28,301 nt of DNA. Origin: a virus. The notes beneath the pieces were generated by a model. The model was not told the origin of the DNA. It did not search any database and saw nothing but the letters and a program-made list of their open reading frames with translations. The stretch's first letter is position 1. Each line of letters starts with the position of its first letter. Below are positions 1,191-24,181 of the stretch, one piece after another. Where the stretch lies: the IMG/VR virus record IMGVR_UViG_3300005664_000056, positions 1 to 28,301 of that record; one strand, 5' to 3'. The position numbers and the translations under genes were made by a program.

Positions 1191-1345
1191 ATCCGTACGA
1201 TAGCTCGATCATCGAAGCCGAGCTGGTAAAGCCAGATAAGCCGAGACTCCCCTGGCATTACGCCCATCCCGTCATCTGGATGCTAGGTGCTCCAGCGATC
1301 TGGATGCTGATCATCATGGCCTGGGCGATCTGGGCTAGTTCCTAG
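1184..1345 (+). CDS. small single-pass membrane protein
   Basis: A 53-residue protein whose last 25 residues form a Trp/Ile/Met-rich hydrophobic segment (from about residue 29 to 51), preceded by a polar N-terminus with KPDKPRLPW. The ATG lies inside the last codons of the previous gene in another frame, which suggests coupling. The longer frame opening at 1004 is mostly a shadow of that gene. Small membrane proteins of this type can be holin-like or act in superinfection exclusion; neither can be argued here. The gene converges with the late block and its last four bases overlap the end of the 1342-3042 gene. Confidence 0.6.
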   Translation: MVNPYDSSIIEAELVKPDKPRLPWHYAHPVIWMLGAPAIWMLIIMAWAIWASS

Positions 1346-3042
1346 AGCCCACGCTTCTTCCGCATCTCGGCCTTGGCACGGAGGGTACCGGGGCGATCAC
1401 CAGGCTGATCTTTGAGCTGATCATTGGTGATCTGGCTGGTCCGTGCATTCACCGTCGGCTTCTGCTGCACGCCGAGCAGTCCAGCGGCCAATCCGTGTGG
1501 GTTCATGTAAGCAGAGATCACGTCTCCAGGGAGTCCGCCAGCAATATCTCCCAGGAATGGAGTGCTTTCAATCTGCCCGATCAGGCCGGGCTTATTAGCC
1601 TCTCGGATGAGTCGCTCCTTTGTGTCTTTTGGGAGACCATCCAACAACACTTCCTGCTCGGCCGGTGACTTACCCTGGAGGTCCTCCGGCTTAGGTGCTT
1701 CTGCGATCTTCTGGGCTGGAGTGCGGTTGTCGATAGGCTTGCCGTTGGCATCGGTACCATTAGCCTTAGCTAATCCCAGTCCGGCGATCTTCTCCCGGCT
1801 GGCATTGTTCGCTGTGGCCATCCGCTCTTGGGCAGCCAGCGTATCCTTCTGGGCAGCAATACGGGCCGCTCCCTGTTCCCGAGCTAGACCTAGACGTCCA
1901 TTCGCATCGGCCTTTAGGGCAGCCGACTGTGGGTCCTGCATGGCTAAGCGTTCGTCAAAGGTCAGGCGACCCTTCTGGATGCGTACCTTCTCAGCACGAC
2001 CCTCTTTACGGGCCTGTGCGTTCGCTAGGACGCCAGCAGATCGTTCCGACCGCTCGCTGGACTGTCGGCCTTCATAAGCCGCCTTGCGGGCTTCTAGGCC
2101 TCCCCGGCGAGCGTCGAAGGTCTCTCTGGCCTTCTGCTGCTCCGGGGTGTTATTGCCGATGTACTGCATCCCCATCTTGCCGGTAACGGGGTCGATCTCG
2201 CCAGTCTCCTTACCAGTGAAGCGGTAGCTGGCTCCTGAGTCCTTACCGAACTGTGGCTTCTGGCCCAGGTCCTTCATGGGGCCATCCGCAAAGGCCACTC
2301 GGCCATCCGCTCCCCTAACCGGTAGGGTTCCACCGAAGTTACCCAGCGTGTTCTCGGCCTTCATGCGGGCATCAAAGCCAGCTTGATTGGAAGCATAGCC
2401 ACCTAATGGTTGAGCGGCTGGAGGTGGTGCCGTCAGTCCGAGGCTACCAATCATGTTGGGAGGAGACGGCACACGGCCAATAGGCGACGGGTTAATATCC
2501 GGGCCGGTGGGGCTGGTGATCGGATGTTGGCCAGCTAGAAGAGCCTTGCTGAGAGGGCCTAACCCATCCTGACCCTGGGGTAAGAACCCACGATCAGGCA
2601 CGGTCCCCTGCGGAGTGCCACGATATGGATCAGTCGGGAAGAACTGGTTGCCCATCATACGGCCACCAAGCTCACCGTTCTGAGCCATCGCAATACGGCG
2701 GGCTTTCTCTTCCGGATCGTAGCCCTTGAACTCAGGGCGAACGGGAGTCACCGGCCCTAGTGGAGACGGGACGGTTCCCTGTGGCTGGAACGGAGATTGC
2801 GGTGCCGACTGAGCTTGCTGTTCTCGCTGGCCAATGTAATAGCCACCAGGAGACGGAGTGGTTGTTCTCTTTTGGGCGTTAGCATCTTTAGCGAACTGTT
2901 GTCCAAGAGGGTGCTCCATGGGAACACGCACTCCACCGTGACCGCCTGGCATTTCCTCGATCTGACGAGGCAGCACCCCGCCCCCCGGCTGTAGGCCACC
3001 AACGCTCTTCTTTTTAGGGGCGAGTCCCAGTTCAAAAGCCAT
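1342..3042 (-). CDS. large low-complexity virion-associated protein
   Basis: A 566-residue protein and the last gene of the minus-strand block. Residues 1 to about 270 are rich in Gly, Pro and Gln with repeated short turns and look disordered. A central part (roughly 300-440) is Ala/Arg/Glu-rich and helical (repeated ARK, ERS and RMA-type segments). The C-terminus returns to disorder and ends in KAEMRKKRGL. Its size and position fit an internal virion or tail-end structural protein, but no family is recognised. Because csrA on the opposite strand separates it from the other late genes, it probably has its own promoter near 3090. The SD lies in a GGA-loop hairpin. It ends in TAG. Confidence 0.75.
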   Translation of the reverse strand: MAFELGLAPKKKSVGGLQPGGGVLPRQIEEMPGGHGGVRVPMEHPLGQQFAKDANAQKRTTTPSPGGYYIGQREQQAQSAPQSPFQPQGTVPSPLGPVTPVRPEFKGYDPEEKARRIAMAQNGELGGRMMGNQFFPTDPYRGTPQGTVPDRGFLPQGQDGLGPLSKALLAGQHPITSPTGPDINPSPIGRVPSPPNMIGSLGLTAPPPAAQPLGGYASNQAGFDARMKAENTLGNFGGTLPVRGADGRVAFADGPMKDLGQKPQFGKDSGASYRFTGKETGEIDPVTGKMGMQYIGNNTPEQQKARETFDARRGGLEARKAAYEGRQSSERSERSAGVLANAQARKEGRAEKVRIQKGRLTFDERLAMQDPQSAALKADANGRLGLAREQGAARIAAQKDTLAAQERMATANNASREKIAGLGLAKANGTDANGKPIDNRTPAQKIAEAPKPEDLQGKSPAEQEVLLDGLPKDTKERLIREANKPGLIGQIESTPFLGDIAGGLPGDVISAYMNPHGLAAGLLGVQQKPTVNARTSQITNDQLKDQPGDRPGTLRAKAEMRKKRGL

Positions 3043-3048
3043 CTGTCA

Positions 3049-3062
3049 GGCCCTCCATGGCC
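3049..3062 (-). promoter_or_regulatory. GGA-loop hairpin at RBS of the 3042 gene
   Basis: On the minus strand GGCC-ATGGAG-GGCC forms a four-pair GC stem with the Shine-Dalgarno GGAG in the loop, six bases before the ATG at 3042. The loop contains ATGGA, the ANGGA core of CsrA sites. Confidence 0.45.
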
Positions 3063-3137: not shown

Positions 3138-3152
3138 CGGCCTGACAGGCCG
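3138..3152 (+). repeat. CGGCCT-N3-AGGCCG leader hairpin, copy A (csrA leader)
   Basis: CGGCCTGACAGGCCG forms a six-pair stem with a three-base loop, preceded by AAAA and followed by AATTCCCC. The hairpin ends 49 bases before the csrA start. Near-identical hairpins with the same flanks lie at 25190-25205 (+) and 15785-15800 (-), each in a gene leader. Confidence 0.7.
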
Positions 3153-3183: not shown

Positions 3184-3199
3184 TAAGTCAGGAGACTTA
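3184..3199 (+). promoter_or_regulatory. perfect GGA-loop hairpin at the csrA RBS (candidate autoregulatory site)
   Basis: TAAGTC-AGGA-GACTTA is a perfect six-pair hairpin whose four-base loop is the Shine-Dalgarno core, two bases before the csrA ATG. This matches the known layout of CsrA sites, with GGA in an apical loop overlapping the RBS. Autoregulation of csrA is inferred. Confidence 0.65.
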
Positions 3200-3201
3200 C
3201 G

Positions 3202-3408
3202 ATGCTGTGCCTTAGCCGAAAAGTTAGTGAGCGGATCATTATTGACGGACGGATTGCGATTGAGATCCTAGCGATCACATCAGGCGGTCGAGTCCGGGTT
3301 GGCATCTCGGCCCCGCTGGATATTCCGATAGAGCGAGAGGAGCTTCTTGACCGGGACCGCGACACATTGTCCGATCCAGACCATCTTGGCTTGCAGACGT
3401 GCTCCTAG
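3202..3408 (+). CDS. csrA: CsrA/RsmA-family RNA-binding translational regulator
   Basis: A 68-residue protein that follows the CsrA fold end to end: N-terminal MLCLSRKVSERIIIDG, central IAIEILAIT, then RVRVGISAPLDIPIEREEL. Residues that contact RNA in characterised CsrA proteins are present (L4, R6, and R45, which is equivalent to E. coli R44). The tail after about residue 50 (RDRDTLSDPD...) is phage-specific. CsrA dimers bind GGA in hairpin loops and block or promote translation. The gene stands alone on the plus strand inside the minus-strand late block, with a structured leader holding a recurrent hairpin and an RBS hairpin of CsrA type. Its 3' end overlaps the end of the convergent 3280-3684 gene by 129 bases. 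It ends in TAG. Confidence 0.92.
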   Translation: MLCLSRKVSERIIIDGRIAIEILAITSGGRVRVGISAPLDIPIEREELLDRDRDTLSDPDHLGLQTCS

Positions 3409-3684
3409 GGTGTTGAGGGATTGCTCGCGTTCGATACAAGATCGGCAGTCCTTTTTACGAAGGAACCACGCCCATCGTTCCTTGTTGATGCCAATGACTT
3501 GTAGGCAAACATCCACCCAGCATCCGAGTTCCCACCAGCGGGGATAGGCTTTGCATAACCCTGGAACAATGCCATTACCCATAGGCACCCACGGGCCTTT
3601 ATTGAAACACCCCGGACGGACGCAGCAGAAGTGCTGTCGGCCGTCTCGTGGCAATTCAGAAGTTGGTTGCAGGTCGCATCTCAT
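3280..3684 (-). CDS. small Cys/Trp-rich protein after the tail genes
   Basis: A 134-residue protein starting at the ATG at 3684, which overlaps the upstream TGA (ATGA); an in-frame ATG at 3723 has no RBS. It is rich in Cys and Trp (CCVRPGC, YPRWWELGCWVDVC, KKDCRSC), suggesting metal sites or disulfides. A CxxC followed by R...LN near residue 95 recalls small zinc-binding proteins found beside tail genes in some phages. The last 43 codons are antisense to csrA, which is unusual because csrA is constrained there. No function is assigned. Confidence 0.65.
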   Translation of the reverse strand: MRCDLQPTSELPRDGRQHFCCVRPGCFNKGPWVPMGNGIVPGLCKAYPRWWELGCWVDVCLQVIGINKERWAWFLRKKDCRSCIEREQSLNTLGARLQAKMVWIGQCVAVPVKKLLSLYRNIQRGRDANPDSTA

Positions 3685-4280
3685 AGGGCAGTAACCAGCA
3701 TGGTTGAGGCGGAGTTGGAGCATCCGGCAGTACCAATGCCACCGCAGTTAGAAGCTGACTTTGTGGCCAATGACTCGCCGCTATACGCACCGCAGTCTGG
3801 CGAAGTGCCGCCTAGGCTGTTGACCCAAAACAGAGTGGCGTTGCTACAGTGCCCAGTTATGGAGCCTTGAGCGGTATAAGTTCCGCCGTTGCCGTCGATG
3901 TAAAACTGAATCGTAAGTGTTCCGCTACTAAACCCCCCGCACGTCACAGCCACCGCAGCGTGGGTTGTTTGCCAAATGCAACGCTGCTGCCCGCCATCGT
4001 CGATGCTGAGAGGGTCAAGAACGTATGTGAGGTCAAGGCTGCTACAGCTAGTGCATGTTCCACCGTCAGCAATTCCGCTCACATCGAGTTGAAACTGCCG
4101 CGTAAAATCCATGTCAGGATCGCAATAAGTGCAGTCACCGCCTCCGCAACAGCCACACCCTGGCCACCACCCGAACCCCGACCCCAACAGAATAATCCCG
4201 CACTCAGGGTGCAACGTGGACAAACATCCGACAGCTAACCACAGCAAGTAGAATCGAATTACGGGAACGACGTAGTTCAT
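3681..4280 (-). CDS. Cys-rich tail-region protein with hydrophobic N-terminus
   Basis: A 199-residue protein starting at the ATG overlapping the upstream TAA (TAATG); a start at 4295 is less likely. Residues 1 to about 35 are hydrophobic (YVVPVIRFYLLWLAVGC) and could be a signal or membrane segment. Then come a Cys/Gly knot (CGCCGGGDCTYC) and a beta-rich domain with paired cysteines (GGTCTSCSSLDLTYVLD ... CIW). The layout of a Cys cluster, a 'V.G....CTSC..L..TYVL' block and C-x-W resembles a family I associate with tail regions of Planctomycetota prophages (recollection). It is coupled to genes on both sides and is likely a minor tail or adsorption component. Confidence 0.7.
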   Translation of the reverse strand: MNYVVPVIRFYLLWLAVGCLSTLHPECGIILLGSGFGWWPGCGCCGGGDCTYCDPDMDFTRQFQLDVSGIADGGTCTSCSSLDLTYVLDPLSIDDGGQQRCIWQTTHAAVAVTCGGFSSGTLTIQFYIDGNGGTYTAQGSITGHCSNATLFWVNSLGGTSPDCGAYSGESLATKSASNCGGIGTAGCSNSASTMLVTAL

Positions 4281-4918
4281 TAGCAGGCCACCCACATGAG
4301 GATTGGGATACCGTTCCCTTGTGAAACCCCACAGTAGTTGTTGCTTAGTCCGGTAAGGGCTGTGGCACGATTAACGACTCCCGTGATGTTCATCGTGCTG
4401 TTGGTTTGGTAGGTGGTGCCAACATACACACTGACGGTGCAGGTTGATCCGACCGAAACGCTGGCGTCGTCTATCGTCCCGATCACAATAGGCGATCCGA
4501 CCCACCGAGCAATCGTGACGCTAGCCCCGGCAGCAGTGGTGTTGCCGCCCAGAATCTCAAAGCCATAGTAGTTCTTTGAGAGCGTGTGCTGGTTGTGCTT
4601 TGGCCCCCACACCTCTTTGATAGCAGGAGTCCCCGTGTCGTACCGCACGTAGTTAGGTTGGGCCAAGTCAGTGGCCAGGCCCTCATCCGAGGTGCCCAGG
4701 CCAATCGCAAAGGGGCCAGTAACCAGATACCCGTTCCAGTTGAAGTCGGTGTCGGCAGCGTTGGGCTTCCTGACCGTGTAGAGCATCTCATTGTTGGAGG
4801 CCGTCACGGTAGTGATCAGCACCACGGAGAACGGGGGAATCACGGCACCACTGGCGTTCTTCACCCGCAGCGGCCACCGGTCCCGTACCATTTGCCAGCG
4901 TTGGTCTAGTGGATTCAT
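4280..4918 (-). CDS. beta-rich minor tail protein
   Basis: A 212-residue protein. The N-terminal half (VKNASGAVIPPFSVVLIT, then VRKPNAADTDFNWNGYLVTGP) is beta-rich and ends in a WGPK...HTL...YYGFEILGG block; a Thr/Ser-rich beta tail follows. The arrangement resembles small structural proteins seen next to tail hub genes in environmental phages, but no enzymatic residues are apparent. The start overlaps the upstream TGA (ATGA) and the stop overlaps the next ATG, so it is co-translated with the hub-like gene before it and the Cys-rich gene after it. A fibre-tip or baseplate accessory role is inferred from position. Confidence 0.7.
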   Translation of the reverse strand: MNPLDQRWQMVRDRWPLRVKNASGAVIPPFSVVLITTVTASNNEMLYTVRKPNAADTDFNWNGYLVTGPFAIGLGTSDEGLATDLAQPNYVRYDTGTPAIKEVWGPKHNQHTLSKNYYGFEILGGNTTAAGASVTIARWVGSPIVIGTIDDASVSVGSTCTVSVYVGTTYQTNSTMNITGVVNRATALTGLSNNYCGVSQGNGIPILMWVAC

Positions 4919-6456
4919 TGGGCCTCCAAGAGACGTTCAACGGCTTGCCGGCGACGGCGTTCATTCAAGCTCAGACTAGACGTGTCCCCTTCGTAGTTCT
5001 CATAAACCGATGTGCGGATACCTAGGGTGGGCAGGATGTCCCACCGGGCCTGAGCGATCTTGCCGTCTAGCGTACCTGCGACCATACCCATGTAGGTGAT
5101 CTCGGAGGAAGCCGCGTCCTGGTACTTCTGCCGGAAGATGTCCACGTACTTATCGGCCTCGGTGTTGGCTTGGGCCTCGGTGTTCACCGTCGGGGAGTAG
5201 GCCGCATATAGCTCGGGCCGCTTCAGGATCAGGGCCCCTCCCGCTCCACCGATATTCCCCGACCGCACGATATGCACAGCCTGCCCGCCCTCATCCTTAA
5301 CCTTGTAGGACGTGTTCAGGTAGAAGGCCGGCTCTGAGTACCTCCCACTGGAGTCCAGCTTGAAGACCGGGAAGTCCGTATGCACGATCTTCCGCTCGGG
5401 ATACCACTCATACCCACCCGTCCAGCGAGCATCTGTGGTGTTGTTGGGGAGGTCCGTGTAGGCGTAGTAGTCCCCACTCAGATACATCGGTAAAGGCCTA
5501 GAGAATCCTTCCAGGTCCTTCTCGCTGTCCAACAGGTAATCGTTCAGGATGTACTGATCCATCTTTGTAACGTTCACCGGGCAGTTCGGTACCTGCGTGG
5601 TGCCGTCAGCCTGGCCTGTCACCCGGAAGTCCCGGAAGTAGCCCTCATAGGCATTACTGCGTCTGGTTGTAGTAGTGATGCTCGGGAAGGAGAACGGCGA
5701 CTCGGCCCCCACGGAAGCGTAGGGCAGGGCCTCCCAGTTGGTGATCAGCTTTTGGTCCCCGTTGTCGTTCCGCATCACCGTCCGGAGTTGGAGCTTTGTC
5801 TGATACAGGCTATCGCCGCCATGGACTTCTACCCGTGAGGGGATCTCCTTGCGGTTGTAGAACCGGTACTTCGGTAGAATCTCCGACAGGCCCGTCGGGC
5901 TGCTTTGGCCGGTGCCTAGCGGCCAGATCTCCACCCCATTCGATATCGGATTAAGGACCACCTCACATGCCACATAGTCGCAAAGAGCCTGTAGTGCTAA
6001 ATCTGCTCGCTGATTGCTCCACGCTGCTCTTGGGAACACTCCTGCTGGCATCCTGGATGTATCTATTGTTTCAGAGAGAGCCGTACCTAACAGATTTGCC
6101 AGTTCTGCTGGCGATTTTTGCGTCGATGTATCGAGCGTCCCGTCTGGCTTACGACGGTTGTAGTCGCCTGATATGGTCCGAAACTTCCACTGATACCGCC
6201 GATCAAACCCCACCACCGCCCACAGGGGGGCCTTCTGATCGTAGTGCTTCCTGATGAAGGACTCACTGAGGACGCATCCCGAGAGCGACAGGGTGTTGCC
6301 AGTGCTCCCCCAAGTCAGGGTCTGCTGTCCCAGATCCAGATTATTCTGGGGACGGACGTAGAGCGTGAACGCCGACGGAGAGACTCCTCGGGTAAGCGAG
6401 AGCGTAAGTCCTCGGATACCAGACAGACTTCCAAAGATGATCTCGGCTTGGGCCAT
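4915..6456 (-). CDS. tail hub / baseplate-like structural protein
   Basis: A 513-residue protein. The N-terminal part (FTLYVRP, LTWGSTGNTLSLSGCVL, WAVVGFDRRYQWKF) is a beta domain. Residues about 110-180 (SPAELANLLGTAL... ALQALCDYVACEVVLNP.SNGVEIWPLG) have the helix-strand pattern typical of domain 2 of gp27/gpD-type tail hubs. The remainder is mixed beta and includes a helical segment near 435-455 (AQANTEADKYVDIFRQKYQ). The ATG is four bases after the upstream stop with no SD of its own, pointing to reinitiation. It is probably the tail hub that joins the tube to fibres. The assignment rests on pattern and position, not on a catalytic motif. Confidence 0.55.
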   Translation of the reverse strand: MAQAEIIFGSLSGIRGLTLSLTRGVSPSAFTLYVRPQNNLDLGQQTLTWGSTGNTLSLSGCVLSESFIRKHYDQKAPLWAVVGFDRRYQWKFRTISGDYNRRKPDGTLDTSTQKSPAELANLLGTALSETIDTSRMPAGVFPRAAWSNQRADLALQALCDYVACEVVLNPISNGVEIWPLGTGQSSPTGLSEILPKYRFYNRKEIPSRVEVHGGDSLYQTKLQLRTVMRNDNGDQKLITNWEALPYASVGAESPFSFPSITTTTRRSNAYEGYFRDFRVTGQADGTTQVPNCPVNVTKMDQYILNDYLLDSEKDLEGFSRPLPMYLSGDYYAYTDLPNNTTDARWTGGYEWYPERKIVHTDFPVFKLDSSGRYSEPAFYLNTSYKVKDEGGQAVHIVRSGNIGGAGGALILKRPELYAAYSPTVNTEAQANTEADKYVDIFRQKYQDAASSEITYMGMVAGTLDGKIAQARWDILPTLGIRTSVYENYEGDTSSLSLNERRRRQAVERLLEAQ

Positions 6457-6460: not shown

Positions 6461-7801
6461 TCATGAGACGGTGATCGTCTTATCCTTCGGGATAACGATG
6501 GTTACTTCCGATGGGAGGCAGCCATTCAGCTTGAAGACGGGCCCCGAGACCCGCCCTTGAGGGTCGATGAATTTAGCTCCGGCATACATCTGAATCGTGT
6601 TGGTGACGGTGACCGTGCCATTTCCTCTGGAGAGGTCGAATGTCGATCCAAGAAGCTTCAGTGTGGTGTAAGTCGTTACGCCGTTGGGATAGTGAGTCCC
6701 TCCGTAGATATTTGCTGTCGTCACAGTGCCGGACTTGTGGGTCCAGGACCCGCCGTTCTGATTTGCGGTTGTTATGGCTGAGTTTGTCTCTTGGGTTCCC
6801 CCGTTCAAGGTTACTGTCGTCAGAGTGCAGCCACTGCCGCAGATTGTGGACGCGGCGGATTGTGGCCCGTCACCCGTTATCAGCGTTGCAACTGTCGCAG
6901 TTTCTCCGCCGAAGAAACCAATCCCAATATCACCAGCGAGGTTCCTGACGGTATTTGAGGCGTGGCTCCCCTTGAACAATACACATGGGACTCCCTGCTC
7001 AATACGGCTCCCCTTGCCGAAGATGTTCAAGGCCACTTGGCCGGCACCAGCATCCCACTTAAAGCGACCGCTCCCAGGACCATCGCCCACCTCCAGGTTG
7101 GCAGTGGTGGTCACTGAGTTATCGTCAGTCGTGAAGTAGGTGGTGCGGTATTCTTTGTACGGCTTGGCAGAGTTGTCAGTGTTGTACTCGGCAAGACCGA
7201 CGTTCCCTGTGTAGGACTTGTACTTCGTGATCGTGGCGAACTGACAGGTGGTGGACCCCGAGGCGTAGGTGTTCAGCCCCCACCGCACATCAAAGCTGCC
7301 GGTGTCGAAGATAAGGACGTCGTTGTCGGCCAACTGGGTATTGCTATCCAGGTTATCCACCTGATCGAGGTGGTACTGGCTGGTGGGGACCGTGATGGAT
7401 GAGATAGCCGCCGTACCCGTACTGGTCGTGCCGTCCCCAGTTACTGTGATCGTGAATGGCTTGCCGGCCAAAGCACCTGAACCATTGGCCGTCAGGTCCA
7501 CTTGGCTGGCCGTGCTGTTAGTGGCTGTGAACTCTGAGAACTGTGGAATAAGGGCGGCACCACCATCCGCCACAGGGATGGTGCATGATGCCGTGGTGTC
7601 CGTGAAAGTCGTTCCCGTCAGAGCCTGGAAGATCGTGGTGGCCACCTGGGCCGTCGTAACCAAGGTTCCAATCGTCAGGATGAAATCGACGTTGTTGACC
7701 GTAAGCGTGTAGGTATCACCAGCCGTCCACGTATTAGCTACGGTGATGCGACTGACCTGTTTGCGGTTCAAACTGGCCCCGGTGTAACGGGAGGTAGTCA
7801 T
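6461..7801 (-). CDS. beta-repeat fibre-like structural protein
   Basis: A 446-residue protein rich in Thr, Ser, Gly and Asn with short beta repeats. The first 130 residues (ITVANTWTAGDTYTLTVNNVDFILTIG ... ALAGKPFTITVTGDG) form an Ig-like domain seen in phage and cell-surface proteins. The C-terminal half has regular NGGT/YGGT turns (TLNGGTQETNS, NQNGGSWTHKSG, NIYGGTHYPNG) typical of a beta-solenoid fibre. It was probably displayed on the tail or capsid. It starts with its own SD in a GGA-loop hairpin, and the following gene begins four bases after its stop. Confidence 0.65.
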   Translation of the reverse strand: MTTSRYTGASLNRKQVSRITVANTWTAGDTYTLTVNNVDFILTIGTLVTTAQVATTIFQALTGTTFTDTTASCTIPVADGGAALIPQFSEFTATNSTASQVDLTANGSGALAGKPFTITVTGDGTTSTGTAAISSITVPTSQYHLDQVDNLDSNTQLADNDVLIFDTGSFDVRWGLNTYASGSTTCQFATITKYKSYTGNVGLAEYNTDNSAKPYKEYRTTYFTTDDNSVTTTANLEVGDGPGSGRFKWDAGAGQVALNIFGKGSRIEQGVPCVLFKGSHASNTVRNLAGDIGIGFFGGETATVATLITGDGPQSAASTICGSGCTLTTVTLNGGTQETNSAITTANQNGGSWTHKSGTVTTANIYGGTHYPNGVTTYTTLKLLGSTFDLSRGNGTVTVTNTIQMYAGAKFIDPQGRVSGPVFKLNGCLPSEVTIVIPKDKTITVS

Positions 7802-7803: not shown

Positions 7804-7817
7804 GTGTTTCCTTACAC
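7804..7817 (-). promoter_or_regulatory. GGA-loop hairpin at RBS of the fibre-like gene
   Basis: Minus strand GTGT-AAGGAA-ACAC: four pairs with the SD in a six-base loop, two bases before the ATG at 7801. The loop contains AAGGA (ANGGA). Confidence 0.5.
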
Positions 7818-9217: not shown

Positions 9218-10165
9218 TTATGCCGGATTTGAGTCAATCGTGAGCTCAAGCTCCCTCGTGGAGCCTGTCATGCGGGAGACGTAGTTGCTAACCAGGTCGA
9301 TCTCTTCCTTGCCGGAGACCACGGGGCTCTGGTTCACTAACTGAAGGACCCCGAACGTCCAGGCAATGCTGACATTGCCATTAGTCGCGGTGATCACGTT
9401 GTTGCTCGTAGGAGACGAGGACAGGGCCACCGCATCTAGGGCAGCCGTAGCTGAGTCGTACGGATGTCGGGTCTGGAGGCTGACCTTGCGGTGCATCGGA
9501 TACAGGATCGACGGCTCCACGCTGTTCACATACCGAGGACGCACATAGTTGTCGAGCACAATCGTGAACTGCTTAGTCTCGTACGCAGTATTAGAGATCT
9601 TGATAGCAGACGCCGTGTCTTCGAACACCATCGGGTAGAAGCTGCCGTCGGCCAGGGAGATGCTGGCTGTGGGTCCCGATGGGTTCTTCTGGTAGGCCAG
9701 AGCAATGATCGAGAGCTGGAGGATCAAGAAGTTCGGGGGGCCACCGGGGCCATTCTGCGTGCCACGGACCACTGCCTTCGTCACATAGCAGGAGCTGAAC
9801 TCGAACGTCGCCGTTACCTTGTCAATCAGAATTGCGAACGGCAGGAGAGCGTTTCCGTTGGTGGCGAAGCTGTACGTAGTAGAGACGGCCGTCTTACCCA
9901 TGAAGTAAGGGGCCCAGGTAGCCATCTCAGCCGGACTGACGCCGAACGTGATGGTGCCTGAGTAGACGCTCGGTCCTTTACGGGCCCGCTCACCGTGCTC
10001 TGACCGGTCCCCTGTGATGACCATTGGGTGGACGACCGAGCCGATGTACTGCATCGACTCCCGGTAGAACGGGTACGAGATGATCGTGCCGGTTGTCCAG
10101 TTAGGGACGCCAGCCCCATCTTTCAGATACAGCCTAGCTTTGGCTCCTTGAGCTTCCGATGCCAT
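9218..10165 (-). CDS. major tail tube protein
   Basis: A 315-residue protein with the architecture of siphovirus/myovirus tail tube proteins: an N-terminal strand (ARLYLKDGAG), a loop with ...RARKGPSVYSGTITFGVSPAEMATWAPYFMGK (about residues 60-95), where the 'G.v.G.i.f..sP.e....l...mG' pattern is typical, then paired beta strands with ATFEFSSCYVTKAVVRG. The C-terminal half repeats beta elements. The ATG at 10165 is preferred over an upstream TTG at 10177 because GGAG lies six bases before it and the start is presented in a hairpin. Presence of this gene implies a tail with a tube. Confidence 0.7.
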   Translation of the reverse strand: MASEAQGAKARLYLKDGAGVPNWTTGTIISYPFYRESMQYIGSVVHPMVITGDRSEHGERARKGPSVYSGTITFGVSPAEMATWAPYFMGKTAVSTTYSFATNGNALLPFAILIDKVTATFEFSSCYVTKAVVRGTQNGPGGPPNFLILQLSIIALAYQKNPSGPTASISLADGSFYPMVFEDTASAIKISNTAYETKQFTIVLDNYVRPRYVNSVEPSILYPMHRKVSLQTRHPYDSATAALDAVALSSSPTSNNVITATNGNVSIAWTFGVLQLVNQSPVVSGKEEIDLVSNYVSRMTGSTRELELTIDSNPA

Positions 10166-10172
10166 CCATGGC
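10161..10172 (-). promoter_or_regulatory. GGA-loop hairpin containing the tail tube start codon
   Basis: Minus strand GCCA-TGGA-TGGC: four pairs, and the loop A is the first base of the ATG at 10165. The ATGGATG string resembles the ANGGAUG core of CsrA sites. A separate GGAG lies just upstream as the likely SD. Confidence 0.4.
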
Positions 10173-10181: not shown

Positions 10182-10655
10182 TTAATAACTCGTGGGTAGC
10201 TCGCGAACCCAGCTTACCACAACCAATTGTCGGATGATGTAATTCGGCCACTTGTTGGGGTTGGTCAGGGTCTTGCCGGGCATCACGATGCAGACGTGCT
10301 CCTTGGGAGCCGTGGCGTCTCCAATCGTCACCAGGACCCGCTGGTCAGCGAACCGCCTCCGGATCAGCTCGTACCACTGCATGACCTTATCGTCTGACAG
10401 GATCGAGTCATAGGACCGCATCTTCGCCAGCACGATTCCCACAATGTAACCAATGTCTGAGGTCCCTACGGTGCCGTCGTCGTACTGCTCTCCCATGTCG
10501 ATAATGGAGGCCCCACGATACGGATCTCCCGTCGGAGACAGCCAGTCCTCACGGATCGCTACCTCCGAGTCCACCAGCCCTTCCGGCTGAAGGTCCTTCA
10601 CGATGGCTTCGATGGCCACCATGATCTGACCTTTATGGGAGATGTAGCTAGCCAT
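10182..10655 (-). CDS. head-tail joining / tail terminator-like protein
   Basis: A 157-residue protein between the connector-like gene and the tail tube gene, the usual place for a neck or tail-terminator protein. It has an N-terminal helix (IMVAIEAIVKDLQPEGL), a central strand-helix (SDIGYIVGIVLAKMRSYDSIL) and a C-terminal beta part with HVCIVMPGK and YIIRQLVVVSWVREL, which fits the small alpha/beta fold of tail terminators. Its start overlaps the upstream TAA (TAATG). The assignment relies on size, order and predicted fold; no signature is diagnostic. Confidence 0.55.
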   Translation of the reverse strand: MASYISHKGQIMVAIEAIVKDLQPEGLVDSEVAIREDWLSPTGDPYRGASIIDMGEQYDDGTVGTSDIGYIVGIVLAKMRSYDSILSDDKVMQWYELIRRRFADQRVLVTIGDATAPKEHVCIVMPGKTLTNPNKWPNYIIRQLVVVSWVRELPTSY

Positions 10656-11851
10656 TAGGGCTGCGTCCCTCCGGTGGTCAGGTCCGCACTGGCGGCGATA
10701 CCTGCCAGGTTGTTCGGTTGGTAGGCCCGACCACCACGGTCTTCCGAGCGTTGATCAGCAGCCATAGCAAAGATCAGAGCCCGTTCATAACGAGCCTCTC
10801 TCTGCTCCTGGCCCTTCCGGTCTTGGGAAGCGAACTTCGCCTCACAGCACCGCAGAAAGGCACTCCGCATGGCACCCGGCTCAATGTCGATCCGAGAGCT
10901 GATACGGTAGCCCGAGCCAGATAGCGTGGTATCCGCGTCCTGCTCTAAGGTCAGAGACGTCGTAGATTCCACACTCCGAATCACCCGCTGCATGGTGTAA
11001 GGATTCACTCGGTTCTTGTCGATCTCCCCTTGGAGTGAGGTCGGGATGGACGTATCCCCGGTCTTCGTGAACCGCATCACGGCTCCCACCATATCCGAGG
11101 TGAAGCTCGTACTGGTGCCCGTGACGGTCGCAGACCCTGAGGTCGTAGCCACCGTTCCCACCGAGTACTCCAGCACCTTCAATGGCAGGGGCCAGCAGAG
11201 GGCATGGTACTGGTAAGTGCGGGCCGAGCTAGGAGACGGGGCAAAGTGGATAGCCATAGCACCCGCATACAGGTCACTGCGGTAGGCCGCATACATCAGA
11301 GGCTGGGCCGTGTTCCGCATGATCCGCTGCTCATGGAGGATATCCGAGGGCTCCACGCATTGCAGGAGCCGCCCAGGAGCGTTGAGGTCATGCACGTACA
11401 GAACCTCCCGGATGGTATCGGGAAGCTCGTACGTGTCGCGGGTGATGGTGTAGCTGGTACCGGAGGCGATATCAGCCGTTGGGCAGTCACCATCCCTGAG
11501 AATCACGACGGTGCTAGAGGTCCGGCTTTCAATGCTGTACCGGGCACCGGCAATGTATAGGGCGTACTTCGTCACATCCGATGGCCACGTCGAGCTAGTC
11601 AGCGTGAGCGTACGAGACGACGACGTGTAGGCAATCGTCCCCGATGTCTGGCTGGCTACCGTGGCAAACGAGAACGTGCGGTAGTAGTACCGCCAGCTTC
11701 GGCGTACCGGGATCTCCGAATACGCCTCCAAGACAGCATCCCACGCCAACCTGCGGCTCCGGGGTGAATAGTCCCCGGCCACAACTTGATCGAGGGTGTA
11801 GTCGATGGCGTCCCATACGGTTAGGTATGGGGTATTGCTAGTTAGGCTCAT
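10655..11851 (-). CDS. head-tail connector (adaptor) with inserted Ig-like domain
   Basis: A 398-residue protein. The N-terminus (TVWDAIDYTLDQVV...RRLAWDAVLEAYSEIPVRRSWRYYYRTF) is helical as in gp6/tubular-A-type adaptors that dock on the portal. It is followed by Ser/Thr-rich beta segments. A second Ser/Thr/Gly-rich beta insertion near 230-260 (VATTSGSATVTGTSTSFTSDMVG) is a common phage surface module. The C-terminus is helical again (MRSAFLRCCEAKFASQDRKGQEQREARYERALIFAMAAD). It has an SD in a GGA-loop hairpin. The connector role is inferred from helix pattern and gene order. Confidence 0.6.
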   Translation of the reverse strand: MSLTSNTPYLTVWDAIDYTLDQVVAGDYSPRSRRLAWDAVLEAYSEIPVRRSWRYYYRTFSFATVASQTSGTIAYTSSSRTLTLTSSTWPSDVTKYALYIAGARYSIESRTSSTVVILRDGDCPTADIASGTSYTITRDTYELPDTIREVLYVHDLNAPGRLLQCVEPSDILHEQRIMRNTAQPLMYAAYRSDLYAGAMAIHFAPSPSSARTYQYHALCWPLPLKVLEYSVGTVATTSGSATVTGTSTSFTSDMVGAVMRFTKTGDTSIPTSLQGEIDKNRVNPYTMQRVIRSVESTTSLTLEQDADTTLSGSGYRISSRIDIEPGAMRSAFLRCCEAKFASQDRKGQEQREARYERALIFAMAADQRSEDRGGRAYQPNNLAGIAASADLTTGGTQP

Positions 11852-11855: not shown

Positions 11856-11871
11856 GCTCCTTCCTTAGAGC
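11856..11871 (-). promoter_or_regulatory. GGA-loop hairpin at RBS of the connector gene
   Basis: Minus strand GCTCT-AAGGAA-GGAGC: four Watson-Crick pairs plus one G-U, loop AAGGAA (ANGGA). It lies four bases before the ATG at 11851. Confidence 0.45.
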
Positions 11872-11881: not shown

Positions 11882-12550
11882 TTAGGTCAGGACGGGGTGA
11901 CCATGCAGGCGGAAGATGAACTGGCCAGCCGTGTAAGCCGCAGCCGTGTCACCCGTGCCTGCGGTGAGGTAGAAGTAGTGATCAGCGGTAAGGCTTTGGA
12001 CCAAATTCTGGACCACAACACCTGCTACCGCATCGCCATTGTTAACACCGTAAGTCGTGCCACCGGCACCGTCATAGGCCAGTGACCCCGACGAATTGAC
12101 CACGATGTTCACGTCATTGTCACCACCGGTCGGGGTCTCTACGCAGATCTGCTCGATCTTGAAGATCACACCGTTCGTAGCAACCACGTTGCGACCAATG
12201 TAGGCATTGCCGCCCGCCGACAGGCCAATGACGTCATTGGCGGTAGCCACGCTCGCCAAGCCTTGGAGATCGACTTTAATCTCAGTGATGATAATACCGT
12301 TCTCGGTGTAGCGGTACGTGGCTGGGGCCACGCCCGTACCAATCGCACCGGCACCGTGTTCGGCGGTCACCGCCACGCCAGTTCGGCCAACTACACCGGT
12401 CATGAACTTACTAGCGTTCAGGGTCACGGCTTTCGACGCCTCGGCAGTTCCGAGAGTAGCCACGTTGTAGATGTTGAGGAACTCGGTCGCGGCCCCTTGA
12501 TTAGCAAGACCTTTAGCGAGGTGGCTGGTGAAATTACGAGAGAACGACAT
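11882..12550 (-). CDS. capsid-associated / decoration-like structural protein
   Basis: A 222-residue protein, Gly/Ala/Val/Thr-rich and mostly beta. The N-terminus (MSFSRNFTSHLAKGLANQGAATEFLNIYNVATLG) precedes several strand-turn repeats, and the C-terminus has the block LTADHYFYLTAGTGDTAAAYTAGQFIFRLHGHP. The composition is that of a virion surface or decoration protein. The ATG at 12550 is chosen because the SD and hairpin lie directly before it; the frame opens further upstream at 12586 without such a signal. It lies between the basic 12592-13329 gene and the connector. The exact role is unknown. Confidence 0.65.
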   Translation of the reverse strand: MSFSRNFTSHLAKGLANQGAATEFLNIYNVATLGTAEASKAVTLNASKFMTGVVGRTGVAVTAEHGAGAIGTGVAPATYRYTENGIIITEIKVDLQGLASVATANDVIGLSAGGNAYIGRNVVATNGVIFKIEQICVETPTGGDNDVNIVVNSSGSLAYDGAGGTTYGVNNGDAVAGVVVQNLVQSLTADHYFYLTAGTGDTAAAYTAGQFIFRLHGHPVLT

Positions 12551-12554: not shown

Positions 12555-12568
12555 CGGAATCCTTTCCG
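12555..12568 (-). promoter_or_regulatory. perfect GGA-loop hairpin at RBS of the 12550 gene
   Basis: Minus strand CGGAA-AGGA-TTCCG: a perfect five-pair stem with AGGA in a four-base loop, four bases before the ATG. The AAGGA core matches ANGGA. Confidence 0.6.
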
Positions 12569-12591: not shown

Positions 12592-13329
12592 TTAAACAGG
12601 CGACTTAACCTTGGCTGGCTTTGTCTTGCTGGGACCGTGCTTCGCCAAAACCATAGCTCGTAGCTCTGACTTTGACTTAGACTTCAGCTCCGGATTGGAT
12701 CGTACCATATCCACGGCCTTACGCCTAACCAGATCCGCTCCCATGGGGGTGCAGTTCTCGTCAGCTAATTCATCCCGTTCAGGCTCTCGGTGGTTGGTAC
12801 TGACCGCCCCATCGCAGGCCCAGCCCCGCTTCTCACAGAGATTCTTGATATAACTCCGGGCACCACCAAATGGCACTACCGCCTCGGGGTCCCCTACGAA
12901 CCGGGCCAGCTCGGGCATGTACTCGTCATTGGGTTTCAGGTTCACCCCTCGCTTGGCGAGCTGCTGCTTGACGTTGTTGATGTAGGTGTTGTTCTTTTTG
13001 CTACTGGGGTCTCCGAAGACTTCGTGCCAGGGCTTTCTTCCGGCCCAGAAGGTGTCGGTGGTTTGGAGTCCGGGAGGGGCTTGAAGACATAACATCGTCG
13101 CCCATCTATCACCACACTTCTTATCCTCCCTGCGGATTCGCACATAGATCGCCCCTCTCGTGACGTGGCCACCGCACTCCACGACTAGCTCCCCGCAGCG
13201 TGCCAGAACATCCGAGCTGACATTGGGGAACTCCTTGAGGATCTCCTCGGGCATTGGCGGGTACACCACCAAGTCCACATAGGGTCGCCAGTCTTCGTTG
13301 TCTTTGAGCCAGACATCTATCCGTTTCAT
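12592..13329 (-). CDS. hypothetical protein with basic C-terminus, downstream of portal
   Basis: A 245-residue protein. The N-terminal 110 residues are mixed alpha/beta (MKRIDVWLKDNEDWRPYVDLVVYPPMPEEIL...) with several cysteines. The C-terminal 50 residues are Lys-rich (KSKSKSELRAMVLAKHGPSKTKPAKVKSPV) and probably bind nucleic acid or the capsid interior. Its start overlaps the portal stop (ATGA), so it is translated together with the portal. It is not a family I recognise. Capsid or connector association is inferred from position. Confidence 0.65.
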   Translation of the reverse strand: MKRIDVWLKDNEDWRPYVDLVVYPPMPEEILKEFPNVSSDVLARCGELVVECGGHVTRGAIYVRIRREDKKCGDRWATMLCLQAPPGLQTTDTFWAGRKPWHEVFGDPSSKKNNTYINNVKQQLAKRGVNLKPNDEYMPELARFVGDPEAVVPFGGARSYIKNLCEKRGWACDGAVSTNHREPERDELADENCTPMGADLVRRKAVDMVRSNPELKSKSKSELRAMVLAKHGPSKTKPAKVKSPV

Positions 13330-15755
13330 GCGGCTTTTCCTGGTTTGGGTTTCGTAGCAGCCATCTTCTTAGCCGTATCTACCTTAGCCTTCGACTGCTC
13401 TTTGGTGGTGTCGATCTTAGTCTTAGCCTGGGCCTTGGCAACAGCCACCTGAGTGGCACCCTGCTCCCGCTGCATCGCCATTTGCTGCTGACCCATCTGG
13501 ATCTTCTGGGCACCCTCAGCAGTCTTCACAGCCATATCCACCTGACCCTGCTCTTGCTGCATCTGGATGTTCTGCTGATGCTCCTGCTGAGCCATCTGCA
13601 TTTCCATCTTCTTCTCTTGGATCTTGAGCTGCATCTCCACCATTTTCATCTGGAGTTCAGCCTCCATCTTCTTCAGCTCCATCGCCATTTCCTGCTGGCT
13701 CTGTTGCTGGTCCATCTGCATCTTCTGTTGGTCCATGGCTCCCTTCATCTGGAGCTCCTGCTGCTTTAGGGCAGCGGGATTAGCTTGGGCCTCGGATTGG
13801 AGTTTGACGGCCTCCGCTTGCACCTTCTGAAGTTCCGCCTGCTGCATCTGCGTTTGAAGCTGTGCTTCCGGGCTGTTCTCGTCCTTAGGCTGGAAGAAGA
13901 GACCATCCAAGTCCATATCATGCAGCTCCCCATACTTCTTGAGGAGACCGTTGATCGGCTCCCAGTCACCCGTCAGCTCAGCACGCTTGCTGGCCTCGGG
14001 CAGGAATCGACCCATGAGTTCGTTGAGATCCGCAATGTCTCGGTCTCGGTTCGGACGGCGGACAGAGCTGGCGGCCACCTCATAGTGCATCTGCCGCATC
14101 ACGCTCTCGGCATCGGCGTTCTCGATGTGCTCCTTCCAGAGCATGGCACCGGCCTGACCTAGGAGCGGCACAACGTCGGGAGCCTTTACAAACAGCCAGG
14201 TGAGCATGGCCTCAACACCAGCAACTCGGCTTTGCCAGCCCACAACCTTCTTTTGCATATATTCTGGGCGAGCACTAACAGCCGATTTTCTAGCTTCCGT
14301 CGTTGACGCTGTGCGGTCTTGGGTGCCGTCTTCGTTTTGGCCATAGACGAAAGGGGTCATCCCCATCCTTTTATCGAAGTTGTTACTCAGGATATCCAGA
14401 ACCTGCCAGGAGTCTCGGTTGACCTCTTTGTTCTCAATGATTTGGATCATCTTCTTGACGTCATCCACCGAGCCGGGAGGCAGGGCGAATACATCCAAGT
14501 CGGCCCCGTCATCGAGGACCTTCTTGATGTCGTCATAGTACTGACCCAGGACCGCGTACATCTGGCGGCTAGACTGCCAGGTACGGTTCACCAGCCATGA
14601 GACGATGGCGTTCATGGCCTTCAGCTCACCCAAGGCGGGGGCCAAGGGGGCTATGGGGTAGGCACTTTCCGGATCGTCGTAGAAACGAAGGACTTCAACG
14701 GGCCAGCGGTCATCGGTCCAGAGCGGGACCGGCCACTCGAAGGACTGCCGCACTTCCTCCGACGTCGCTCCATTGCGGATCTTGTCTGCTGGGCAGTTGA
14801 GTGGGTAAGGGCAGTCTGGGCAGATCGCCAGATATGCATAGTCACCGACGGTCTCCTCTAGTTGATTCTTGATAATGCTGGGCATCCCGGTCATACGGGC
14901 CCCGGTGCCGAGCTTACTCCAGACCTCATACCACACGATCAGGTCACTGGTCTTACCGGCCTTCCGGTCGGCACCACCGTCCCCTGAGCTACTAGCCAAC
15001 TCCGCATAGTGCCACGAGGACTCTAGGGTGGCCTTGTTCTTTAGGGAGCCGGGTGGCAGCTTGAACCGCCGCTCGACTTGCCAGTGGGCCTCCGTGTGGC
15101 GGAGAGCAATCCACTTGGCTTCCTGCATGGTCTTGAAATCAGGGTCGATGATCAGGTCACCAGGCGGCTTCCGGAAGCAACCAGTGAGCGTTCTCTCAGA
15201 GCCGGGCATCGAGTAGGGGGCCGGCCACATACAGCCCATGCCAGTGAGCATAGCGTCGAGAACAGCCAGTTCGTTATGACCTTCGAGTCCATTGCCAGGC
15301 ATTTCCCGAGGCGTGTAATTCAGCCACCCCGTCAGGAGCTGAGCCACTACCTTGTCCTTCGATGCCTCTTGGGCTGCCATCTGCATGACAACCTGATACA
15401 TCTGGGGATCTGGGAAGGCGTCCTGAGGAAGCTCTAAGATCTTCTTCGGGGTGACTGTCCGATGCGGGACATCCCACAAGAGGTTCGGGCCAAAGACAGC
15501 CACGAACTCAAAAGCCTTGTTGATGGTGACTCGGAACCGGGGAGCCTTCACGCCCCTCCAGAACTTCTTGGAGTAGAGCGGGTCCCACATGGCGGCAGCC
15601 GACTTCGAGTAGAACATCATGCACTCGTCGGCCACCTCCTTCCACTTCTTGCGGGGCTGAGACGTCAGGGCCATCTCGATCTTAGAAAGCCAGCCCGAGC
15701 ACAACGGACGTAGGAATTGGTAGTCCGTGTCTTCGATATCGCCTAGATCGAGCAT
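13326..15755 (-). CDS. portal protein with Met/Gln-rich C-terminal coiled coil
   Basis: An 809-residue protein, the longest in the window. Residues 1 to about 620 have the helical and beta layout of large podovirus/P22-like portals, with an N-terminal helical region (WKEVADECMMFYSKSAAAMWDPL), a wing region rich in Trp and Pro, and a helical stem (DRDIADLNELMGRFLPEASKRAELTG). Residues of about 630-809 form a long Gln/Met/Lys coiled coil (repeated QMQ, MQM, KKMEAEL) ending in a Lys/Ala-rich tail, which could reach into the capsid or tail channel. The start is inside a GGA-loop hairpin. Proximity to the large terminase supports the portal call. Confidence 0.82.
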   Translation of the reverse strand: MLDLGDIEDTDYQFLRPLCSGWLSKIEMALTSQPRKKWKEVADECMMFYSKSAAAMWDPLYSKKFWRGVKAPRFRVTINKAFEFVAVFGPNLLWDVPHRTVTPKKILELPQDAFPDPQMYQVVMQMAAQEASKDKVVAQLLTGWLNYTPREMPGNGLEGHNELAVLDAMLTGMGCMWPAPYSMPGSERTLTGCFRKPPGDLIIDPDFKTMQEAKWIALRHTEAHWQVERRFKLPPGSLKNKATLESSWHYAELASSSGDGGADRKAGKTSDLIVWYEVWSKLGTGARMTGMPSIIKNQLEETVGDYAYLAICPDCPYPLNCPADKIRNGATSEEVRQSFEWPVPLWTDDRWPVEVLRFYDDPESAYPIAPLAPALGELKAMNAIVSWLVNRTWQSSRQMYAVLGQYYDDIKKVLDDGADLDVFALPPGSVDDVKKMIQIIENKEVNRDSWQVLDILSNNFDKRMGMTPFVYGQNEDGTQDRTASTTEARKSAVSARPEYMQKKVVGWQSRVAGVEAMLTWLFVKAPDVVPLLGQAGAMLWKEHIENADAESVMRQMHYEVAASSVRRPNRDRDIADLNELMGRFLPEASKRAELTGDWEPINGLLKKYGELHDMDLDGLFFQPKDENSPEAQLQTQMQQAELQKVQAEAVKLQSEAQANPAALKQQELQMKGAMDQQKMQMDQQQSQQEMAMELKKMEAELQMKMVEMQLKIQEKKMEMQMAQQEHQQNIQMQQEQGQVDMAVKTAEGAQKIQMGQQQMAMQREQGATQVAVAKAQAKTKIDTTKEQSKAKVDTAKKMAATKPKPGKAA

Positions 15756-15763
15756 CCTTGCTC
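15750..15763 (-). promoter_or_regulatory. GGA-loop hairpin containing the portal start codon
   Basis: Minus strand GAGCA-AGGA-TGCTC: a perfect five-pair stem; the last loop base is the A of the ATG at 15755. The string CAAGGATG equals the CARGGAUG centre of the CsrA consensus. The likely SD, AGGGGG, lies just upstream of the hairpin. Confidence 0.6.
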
Positions 15764-15784
15764 ACCCCCTAAAAGAAGTACATT

Positions 15785-15807: not shown

Positions 15808-16272
15808 CTAGACTTCAACAGTGGCCTTCTTCTTGGCCTTGCCTAGTTTCTCCTCGATGAGGATGGCTCGCTCTTCCGCCTTCTTAGCAAAGGCCTTAGC
15901 GGCATCCTTCGCCTTCTGTTCGGCTTCGATCAGGGCGTTCTCCCGTTTAGCCAACTCCGCTTCATGCACTTCATAGGCATCAGCCGGGGCCTCACGGGGA
16001 AAGCTCCACGAACCGCTGTTCTTGGTGGTCTCGTTGGGCTTGTCGTGAATCCAGTGGGTAGTGTGGTGACAGCCCGCCTTGTGCTGGAGCATCCCATTGA
16101 ACGGGTAGACAGTGACCTTAATGCGGCCAGGTCCTTCTACCTCCGATACGATAGCGGGAGCGGCGTTCCGCTTGTCCCCATAGGCGTGGTAGATAACGCC
16201 ATCACTGACTTTCGGGGTCGGCTGGAGCCTCTGTCGCTGTTCCGCTAACTGGTTCCACACTTCGCTGCTCAT
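15808..16272 (-). CDS. hypothetical protein between large terminase and portal
   Basis: A 154-residue protein. The first 90 residues are beta-rich and include VYPFNGMLQHKAGCHHTTHW, with a Cys-His-His cluster that might bind metal. The last 55 residues (EAELAKRENALIEAEQKAKDAAKAFAKKAEERAILIEEKLGKAKKKA) form a clear coiled coil. The start at 16272 has an SD (AGGAAAGGA) and a hairpin; an opening at 16305 does not. Small proteins of this layout often lie between terminase and portal in environmental phages. It ends in TAG. Confidence 0.7.
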   Translation of the reverse strand: MSSEVWNQLAEQRQRLQPTPKVSDGVIYHAYGDKRNAAPAIVSEVEGPGRIKVTVYPFNGMLQHKAGCHHTTHWIHDKPNETTKNSGSWSFPREAPADAYEVHEAELAKRENALIEAEQKAKDAAKAFAKKAEERAILIEEKLGKAKKKATVEV

Positions 16273-16273: not shown

Positions 16274-16292
16274 GGATTCCTTTCCTGAAACC
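16274..16292 (-). promoter_or_regulatory. imperfect GGA-loop hairpin at RBS of the 16272 gene
   Basis: Minus strand GGTTTC-AGGAAAG-GAATCC: five of six positions pair, with one T-T mismatch, and the SD lies in a seven-base loop. Confidence 0.3.
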
Positions 16293-20476: not shown

Positions 20477-21103
20477 TTACCAAGGAAGGTCGAGGTAGAC
20501 GAGTACGTTCGCTGCCGTGGTGGCAGTCGTGCTCATCGCCACGCCCAGCCGGTTCAAAGCCGCACTCATGCAGTAGGTCGCATTGCTCGTCGAGATGATC
20601 GACGTGATGCGGCCCGCCGTGGTGGCTTGGCTCGTGGCCGCCGTAATGGCGATCACATAGTCATCCTTCACCAAGGCATTAGCATCGAGCGACTTCTTCA
20701 CCAAGCACGGACCCTTCACGACCAACCAGAAGTAGTCGTTAGTGGCCACGCCCGTGGACGGCAGGAACTCATCGACGATGCCAGCAACTACGCCGGAATC
20801 GAGCGACACGTAGCCATCCACTTCTTTACCTTCCATATTCGTCTTCCACACGCACGCCCGGCCCGGAAGCAGGGAGATTGCACTGGAGTTGCGAACCAGG
20901 ATGCACTCGACGTTGCCACCCGAGCGGGGGCCGAGGACAGTCGTGTTGCCAGTCAGGGTGCTGGAATAATCCAGATCCTTGAAGGCCTTGCGAATGCCAC
21001 GGATCGCCGTGCTGGTCGTCGAGCTCGTGTCTGCCGTCCGGTTAGGGCCGGTCAGGTAAGTCTTCCCACGTTGGGGAAGGGAAACAACATTGTCAGCGGC
21101 CAT
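20477..21103 (-). CDS. capsid-associated structural protein (decoration-like)
   Basis: A 208-residue beta-rich protein. After a polar N-terminus (RGKTYLTGPNRTADTSSTTSTAIRG) come strand-turn segments such as ECILVRNSSAISLLPGRACVWK and NDYFWLVVKGPCLVKKS, then an Ala/Thr-rich end. It is two genes after the major capsid, separated only by an HNH gene, and before a strong terminator. This fits a capsid decoration or cement protein. Its leader has GAGGAA as SD without the GGA-loop hairpin found elsewhere. Confidence 0.6.
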   Translation of the reverse strand: MAADNVVSLPQRGKTYLTGPNRTADTSSTTSTAIRGIRKAFKDLDYSSTLTGNTTVLGPRSGGNVECILVRNSSAISLLPGRACVWKTNMEGKEVDGYVSLDSGVVAGIVDEFLPSTGVATNDYFWLVVKGPCLVKKSLDANALVKDDYVIAITAATSQATTAGRITSIISTSNATYCMSAALNRLGVAMSTTATTAANVLVYLDLPW

Positions 21104-21753: not shown

Positions 21754-21755
21754 AA

Positions 21756-21769
21756 AACCTCCTGAGGTT
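21756..21769 (-). promoter_or_regulatory. hairpin presenting the AGGAGG of the HNH gene
   Basis: Minus strand AACCT-CAGG-AGGTT: five pairs, or four pairs with loop TCAGGA. The SD spans loop and stem, two bases before the ATG at 21753. Confidence 0.45.
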
Positions 21770-22929: not shown

Positions 22930-22930
22930 C

Positions 22931-22948
22931 TTTAGCTTCCTTGCTAAA
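22931..22948 (-). promoter_or_regulatory. perfect GGA-loop hairpin at the major capsid RBS
   Basis: Minus strand TTTAGC-AAGGAA-GCTAAA: a perfect six-pair stem with the whole SD in a six-base loop, one base before the ATG at 22929. CAAGGA matches the centre of the CsrA consensus. Confidence 0.65.
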
Positions 22949-22973
22949 AGCCAGTCACAGGGCAGGCCGCCAG

Positions 22974-24167: not shown

Positions 24168-24181
24168 AGGATTCCGTTCCT
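24168..24181 (-). promoter_or_regulatory. GGA-loop hairpin at RBS of the scaffold gene
   Basis: Minus strand AGGA-ACGGAA-TCCT: four pairs with ACGGA (ANGGA) in the loop, directly adjoining the ATG at 24167. The SD-like AGGA also forms the 5' arm. Confidence 0.4.

Follow-up and report, generated by a model that had tools for sequence, protein, structure and literature searches.

What might a phage do with its own copy of csrA, the gene of a bacterial global RNA-binding regulator? The question is raised by the virus record IMGVR_UViG_3300005664_000056 of IMG/VR, a single record that we analysed at its full length of 28,301 bases (hereafter the window), and in which a csrA gene lies on the plus strand among minus-strand late genes. 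Phage csrA genes as such are already known. Sobrero and Valverde (2020) describe csrA alleles in 30 of 2517 phage genomes and call for loss-of-function tests (PMC7366521), and an account of JC1 and Bcep22-like phages places csrA beside the capsid gene in Lessieviruses and mentions one JC1 CsrA peptide in virions (PMC9144972). What is new here is the occurrence of CsrA-type hairpins at the genes for the major capsid protein (MCP), the portal and other virion proteins. Judged from the sequence of these leaders, we consider it rather likely that the phage CsrA controls the translation of virion genes encoded by the same phage, acting through hairpins at their ribosome-binding sites (RBSs).

The csrA open reading frame (ORF) starts with ATG and encodes a complete CsrA, according to the ORF list and a profile search. 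Its product matches Pfam PF02599 with 57.1 bits (cut-off 27; E 1.7e-15; residues 1-51 on profile positions 1-50 of 53), PHROG 9500 (‘CsrA-like regulator’, E 4e-15) and the RsmE structure PDB 2JPP (E 3.5e-9), which confirms the full-length homologue recognised in a first-pass annotation of this DNA. The same annotation held the RNA-contact residues to be conserved. Among the contact positions named by Duss 2014 (Thr5, Gln29, Arg31 and Arg44; PMC4005645), both arginines are kept, as R32 and R45, but Thr5 has become Ser and Gln29 has become Arg, so that the contacts appear mostly rather than fully conserved; the comparison also revealed a single-residue insertion in a loop. A search for named relatives in the phage collection gave no match to the window CsrA or MCP at its default limit.

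The csrA leader carries its Shine-Dalgarno (SD) sequence in the loop of a hairpin, and a reading of the leaders of the window ORFs showed this design to recur at late genes with the loop AAGGAA or AAGGAU (Table 1). These leftward genes include that of a major head protein (PHROG 9953) and a portal/adaptor-like gene (PHROG 332, with a sub-threshold match to the SU10 portal). According to Duss 2014, a high-affinity CsrA/RsmE site is a hexaloop ANGGAX placed directly on a stem, and the motif often overlaps the RBS (PMC4005645). The candidate operators in the virion-gene leaders have this form, with the hexaloop directly on its stem at the RBS. Our own loop definition, ANGGAN, had been adopted before it was compared with the published one. 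For ORF 11882-12550, the start was taken as the ATG at 12550, not the TTG of the ORF list.

The capsid protein led to the relatives G001 (77,276 bp, 81%), G002 (46,712 bp, 76%) and G003 (70,638 bp, 76%). The enrichment set comprised the window, G001 and G003; G002, whose late genes nearly duplicate those of G003, was left out. A hairpin required a stem of at least 4 bp with at most one G-U pair, sites were assigned to gene ATGs, and gene starts were taken from a simple ORF caller rather than from curated annotation. Start-associated ANGGAN sites lie in hairpins in 22 of 87 cases, against 34 of 1363 elsewhere (odds ratio 13.2, p 3.9e-14), while shuffling the flanks of the start-associated sites gives an expectation of 1.06. 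Loops beginning with C, G or T form hairpins at 2/138 start-associated sites and at 79/5336 sites elsewhere. Under a slightly different start rule, ANGGAN scored 22/92, and the counts for the other first bases were 2/59 (C), 0/52 (G) and 0/37 (T). None of 12 control loops was enriched (0 or 1 hairpin for each), and neither were hexaloops with GGA shifted by one base. An AGGA tetraloop (12/110) and an 8-base.A.GGA.. loop (12/94) also scored, which we put down to their being in part alternative readings of these hairpins. By single genome, the start-associated ANGGAN hairpins number 7/16 in the window, 8/48 in G001 and 7/28 in G003.

The same genes bear hairpins in the relatives. In an ortholog test, start codons were projected from the window, window operators were counted at stems of at least 4 bp, and orthologs were excluded if their match began after residue 40 or if a start codon was missing within 15 codons. 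Hairpins of at least 3 bp precede 7 of the 9 G001/G003 orthologs of window operator genes (6/9 at 4 bp), compared with 0/28 ortholog leaders from nine outgroup sequences; for window genes without an operator the corresponding counts are 3/22 and 0/39. The 24.6-kb fragment G014 gave 2/3 for operator genes and 1/3 for the others. The ortholog of ORF 10655-11851 in G003 has no operator at the start chosen. The MCP hairpin reads cuuuuc-AAGGAU-gaaaag in G001-G003 and cgc-AAGGAU-gcg in L163, a record described below, and the MCP stems vary yet stay paired (uagc/gcua, uuuc/gaaa, cgc/gcg, aagg/ccuu). At the portal the stems are gagc/gcuc, aggc/gccu, cggc/gccg and gaca/uguc, and the four pairs are complete in 6/6 sequences, tallied on sequences having a stem. 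Paired stem changes were found at MCP, the portal and ORFs 11882, 10655, 20477, 23475 and 6461.

A later scan by portal alignment yielded L163 (19,752 bp, MCP 79%), which was not used to define the pattern. Hairpins account for 5 of its 11 start-associated ANGGAN sites, with an expectation of 0.15 (p 9e-5). When 3-bp stems are counted, the L163 hairpins precede orthologs of ORFs 23475, 21817, 20477, 15808, 13326, 11882 and 10655, and each of these genes has a hairpin in the window, G001 or G003. The 6-kb contig L164, from the same scan, gave 0/3 by the automatic rule, though a listing of all its starts shows hairpins ahead of the orthologs of the portal and of ORF 15808.

The first-pass annotation had named a recent random insertion, absent from relatives, among the outcomes that would undo its proposal; csrA instead occupies this slot, on the plus strand, in both relatives whose contigs extend over it, G001 and G003, and is therefore not a recent insertion. 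The G002 record begins inside the ortholog of ORF 4915-6456, so that the slot is off that record, as it is off the L163 contig. CsrA scored above the cut-off in 7/7 related records of at least 65 kb (G001, G003, G005, G013, G015, G039 and G040). Its location relative to the late block was determined for G001, G003 and G005 among these, and in G005 it is outside that block. A further relative, with 61% identity in MCP, is on a phage contig within a Planctomycetaceae metagenome-assembled genome (MAG; G021), which suggests Planctomycetota as the host phylum of the phage lineage. In that MAG, one of the csrA matches (C2:59627-59782) and fliW are some 250 bases apart.

In the window, csrA and ORF 1342-3042 diverge while csrA and ORF 3280-3723 converge, and with leftward late ORFs on both sides its reported orientation against the surrounding genes is borne out. 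The description of the gene as standing alone needs qualifying: it does sit between late genes of the opposite strand, but the convergent one overlaps it in antisense at 3280-3408. The G001 homolog of ORF 3280-3723 (identity in the range 33-36%) overlaps csrA by just 4 nt, and the positional equivalent in G003 has no overlap, as if a stop had been lost in the window. No sequence in G001 or G003 matches ORF 1342-3042, and its equivalents there were assigned by position and look; the one in G003 has the hairpin gugg-AAGGAA-ccac. The structured leader proposed for csrA is present as a 6-bp hairpin, TAAGTC-AGGA-GACTTA, with the SD inside the loop, 2 nt 5′ of the ATG, but its folding energy is unexceptional (z -1.41; 24/200 shuffles as good). 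The evidence for structure in the leaders is the loop-specific statistics and the covariation across genes, not energy. In G001, the csrA SD lies in a comparable hairpin, ggaca-GGGAGG-ugucc (ACAGGGAGGUGU). A search for a sigma-70 promoter for csrA found none. Beyond csrA, the window has a terminator-like hairpin for leftward transcripts, so that late transcription would cross csrA in antisense; no equivalent terminator was found in G001 or G003, and an antisense switch is therefore supported in the window only.

Table 1. Features of the window around csrA and at late-gene starts. Coordinates 16274..16285 and 10161..10172 were worked out from the listed leader hairpins.
Coordinates	Strand	Feature	Basis or remark
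3202..3408	+	csrA, 68 aa	Pfam, PHROG 9500, RsmE 2JPP; same slot in G001 and G003
3184..3199	+	Hairpin uaaguc-AGGA-gacuua with csrA Shine-Dalgarno; candidate autoregulatory site	Leader reading
22930..22949	-	Candidate operator uuuuagc-AAGGAA-gcuaaag at major capsid gene (21817-22929)	Leader reading
15749..15764	-	Candidate operator ugagc-AAGGAU-gcucg over portal start codon (portal 13326-15755)	Leader reading and ortholog test
11856..11871	-	Candidate operator gcucu-AAGGAA-ggagc at ORF 10655-11851	G001 and L163 orthologs too
12555..12568	-	Candidate operator cgga-AAGGAU-uccg at ORF 11882-12550	Leader reading and stem comparison
7804..7817	-	Candidate operator gugu-AAGGAA-acac at ORF 6461-7801	G003 ortholog acgcc-AAGGAU-ggugu
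24168..24181	-	Candidate operator agga-ACGGAA-uccu at ORF 23475-24167	G001 and L163 orthologs too
3049..3062	-	Hairpin ggcc-AUGGAG-ggcc at ORF 1342-3042, divergent from csrA	Leader reading
16274..16285	-	Short 3-bp hairpin gga-AAGGAA-ucc at ORF 15808-16272	Similar in G001, G003, L163 and L164
10161..10172	-	Weak candidate with a 3-bp stem, gcc-AUGGAU-ggc, at ORF 9218-10165	gagc-AAGGAU-gcuc at the G001 ortholog
3280..3723	-	Late ORF convergent with csrA	ORF list; 3′ 129 nt antisense through csrA
3138..3152	-	Hairpin CGGCCTGTCAGGCCG-TTTT past csrA, resembling a terminator of leftward transcripts	One such hairpin, chance expectation 0.9

Taken together, we infer that a phage-owned Csr regulon which represses the translation of virion genes is the best reading of the locus, and that the phage probably uses CsrA to time the making of its own particles. 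The first-pass annotation had offered reprogramming of host translation, timing of virion genes, or both; the CsrA-type candidate operators at the phage's own virion genes favour the second. A CsrA dimer would bind the RBS hairpins and block ribosome loading, as it does in bacterial targets, and the block would hold back and coordinate the synthesis of virion proteins. CsrA may limit its own production through the hairpin at its SD, and since a loop that begins with C would be a weaker site, we propose that it does so only when plentiful. Leftward late transcription, which in the window would run antisense through csrA, could then contribute to shutting csrA down and lifting the repression. 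We assign the main role to the phage protein, since operator-bearing genomes whose slot can be seen have csrA within their late block, and host CsrA may act too. The full picture, of an uncultured phage lineage, probably of Planctomycetota, whose CsrA is encoded against the late operon, governs the translation of capsid, portal and other virion genes, and is countered by antisense transcription that lifts the block, is put forward tentatively, as plausible rather than likely.

Several observations weigh against a phage-run regulon. The csrA slot is visible in three genomes only, and no csrA was found on the fragmentary records G002, G014 and L163. Read as a hexaloop, the csrA hairpin is CAGGAG, short of the full ANGGAN consensus because loop position 1 is C and not A; among the three genomes, the window and G001 have an SD-in-loop hairpin at csrA, and none was found in the G003 leader. 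As stems were required for inclusion in the stem tallies, the pairing counts lean towards pairing, a bias from which the ortholog test is free. The operator hairpins fold weakly (z -2.5 to +0.5) and some leaders have another minimum fold, the hairpin of ORF 23475-24167 not being the minimum-energy fold of its leader. Folding energy, tried as proof of hairpin structure, was uninformative in that range; such weak folding fits masking that depends on binding rather than constitutive masking, without proving it. The phylogeny against host CsrA proteins that had been recommended was run, and its 54 columns, with one well supported inner branch, placed neither the phage nor the host rows. This tree left out the weak CsrA matches below the cut-off (G007, G008 and G017), and the final version was also made without L040, L042, L053, L055, L056, L059, L061 and L062.

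The narrow distribution of the pattern belongs with these points. The generality set covered 14 of 15 csrA-bearing viral records (whole or in part), six named csrA phages and nine family members, and in it csrA alone does not predict operators. G013 (0/17), G015 (0/13) and G005 (0/17), of the same family, had no start-associated hairpins, and G007 had 0/12. The 13 csrA-bearing viral records besides G029 had 0 or 1 site each, G004 had 2/20, and the named phages scored 1/7 (F116), 1/20 (Vibrio 219E41.1), 0/16 (VvAW1), 2/13 (AUS531phi), 0/3 (BcepMigl) and 1/20 (PhiXhv-12). The jumbo record G029 shows a weak excess (7/94 over 200 kb, p 0.0025; 3/60, p 0.087, in the part fetched second), and G014 a weak signal (3/9 in one piece, 2/11 in an overlapping piece). 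G029 (L116-L118, L142-L148) is a 204-kb record with two csrA genes. Because most csrA-bearing records tested have 0-2 sites, carriage of csrA does not entail an operator regulon, and the putative regulon marks one lineage.

Other readings of the hairpins were considered. They could answer to host CsrA, so that the phage reads the physiology of its host, with its own csrA giving a minor boost or having some other purpose. The Planctomycetaceae MAG, with six CsrA matches that could serve the operators and one FliW, counts for this and against a phage-run regulon; yet members of the family that presumably infect similar hosts are without the operators (the 0/28 outgroup leaders), including the phage contig in that very MAG, and the MAG pieces have hairpins at only 1/13 start-associated ANGGAN sites. 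We regard control by host CsrA as unlikely, though a serious contender. A smaller probability attaches to csrA being a passenger, or a gene that reprograms the host (motility, metabolism), with the late-gene hairpins in some unrelated role. The retention of csrA in all seven large relatives, also where virion-gene operators are absent, would agree with this, as does the term moron genes used for the csrA of other phages in the JC1 account (PMC9144972), but it leaves the CsrA-type sites at the virion genes of the window lineage unaccounted for.

The hairpins might instead be bound or cut by a different factor that recognises looped GGA (for example a RegB-like endoribonuclease, or another phage protein), with csrA there by coincidence. 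T4 RegB does cut GGAG in ribosome-binding sites. Even so, the A two bases 5′ of GGA and the exact hexaloop register are a Csr/Rsm signature, and we think such a factor improbable, no search aimed at RegB having been made. That the hairpins are a chance product of AAGGA SD sequences in GC-rich flanks is scarcely credible: AAGGA is indeed also a good SD and the stems are short, but flank shuffles fall far below the 22 hairpins observed, other SD contexts are not enriched, and both the ortholog test and the out-of-sample recurrence at the same genes in L163 contradict it.

The proposed phage Csr regulon shares its protein family, loop consensus and RBS position with the CsrA/RsmA/RsmE systems that act on RBS-overlapping A(N)GGA hairpins, as described for RsmE and hcnA (2JPP; PMC4005645). 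It differs from them in that the gene and its candidate targets are both in the phage, many of the targets being virion genes, and in that no Csr sponge RNA of the CsrB/RsmZ type was matched by Rfam, which holds known families only and returned nothing except a tRNA in the window and G001 pieces; sponge RNAs are frequent in Csr systems but not obligatory. With the csrA of other phages it has in common the carriage of a CsrA-like gene, which in published accounts is left open as to function, whereas the named phages tested have 0-2 operator hairpins. No report of a phage Csr regulon of this kind was found in the literature searched. T4 RegA, T4 gp32 and the MS2 coat protein are likewise phage proteins that hold back the translation of phage mRNA at the RBS; they belong to different families, while here a bacterial global regulator would have been taken over and many cistrons have a matching hairpin. 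In the FliW-CsrA-flagellin switch of Bacillus, CsrA holds back a major structural protein, which is the likeness to the present case; FliW, an antagonist that accompanies CsrA in certain lineages only, was found in 0/7 viral records searched.

Further genes were noted along the way. Between MCP and ORF 20477-21103, the window encodes a protein (21154-21804, minus strand) with paired CxxC motifs, nuclease-like by eye and with no Pfam match; tblastn found no homolog in G001 or G003 and only a weak match in G005. ORF 20477 itself lacks in the window the operator that its G001, G003 and L163 orthologs bear. Proteins of 1170 aa in G001 (L031:15074-18583, minus strand) and 1187 aa in G003 (L033:7692-11252, minus strand) have an ANGGAN hairpin at the start and no Pfam match; PHROG gave none for the G001 protein, the only one of the two searched there. 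G001 also has a cluster (L032:3200-10354) resembling a phage COOH-NH2 ligase, an amidoligase and a glutamine-fructose-6-phosphate aminotransferase. Near the right end of the window are an FkbM-type methyltransferase (26595-27263, plus strand) and a protein with a partial resolvase-domain match (25676-26614, plus strand).

For one phage lineage, the window offers a concrete and testable role for csrA, with named sites and a consensus that matches structural work, and the ortholog leaders, with their differing stems, serve as natural mutants. If the reading is true, translation of a phage regulon would be under the control of a bacterial global RNA-binding protein.
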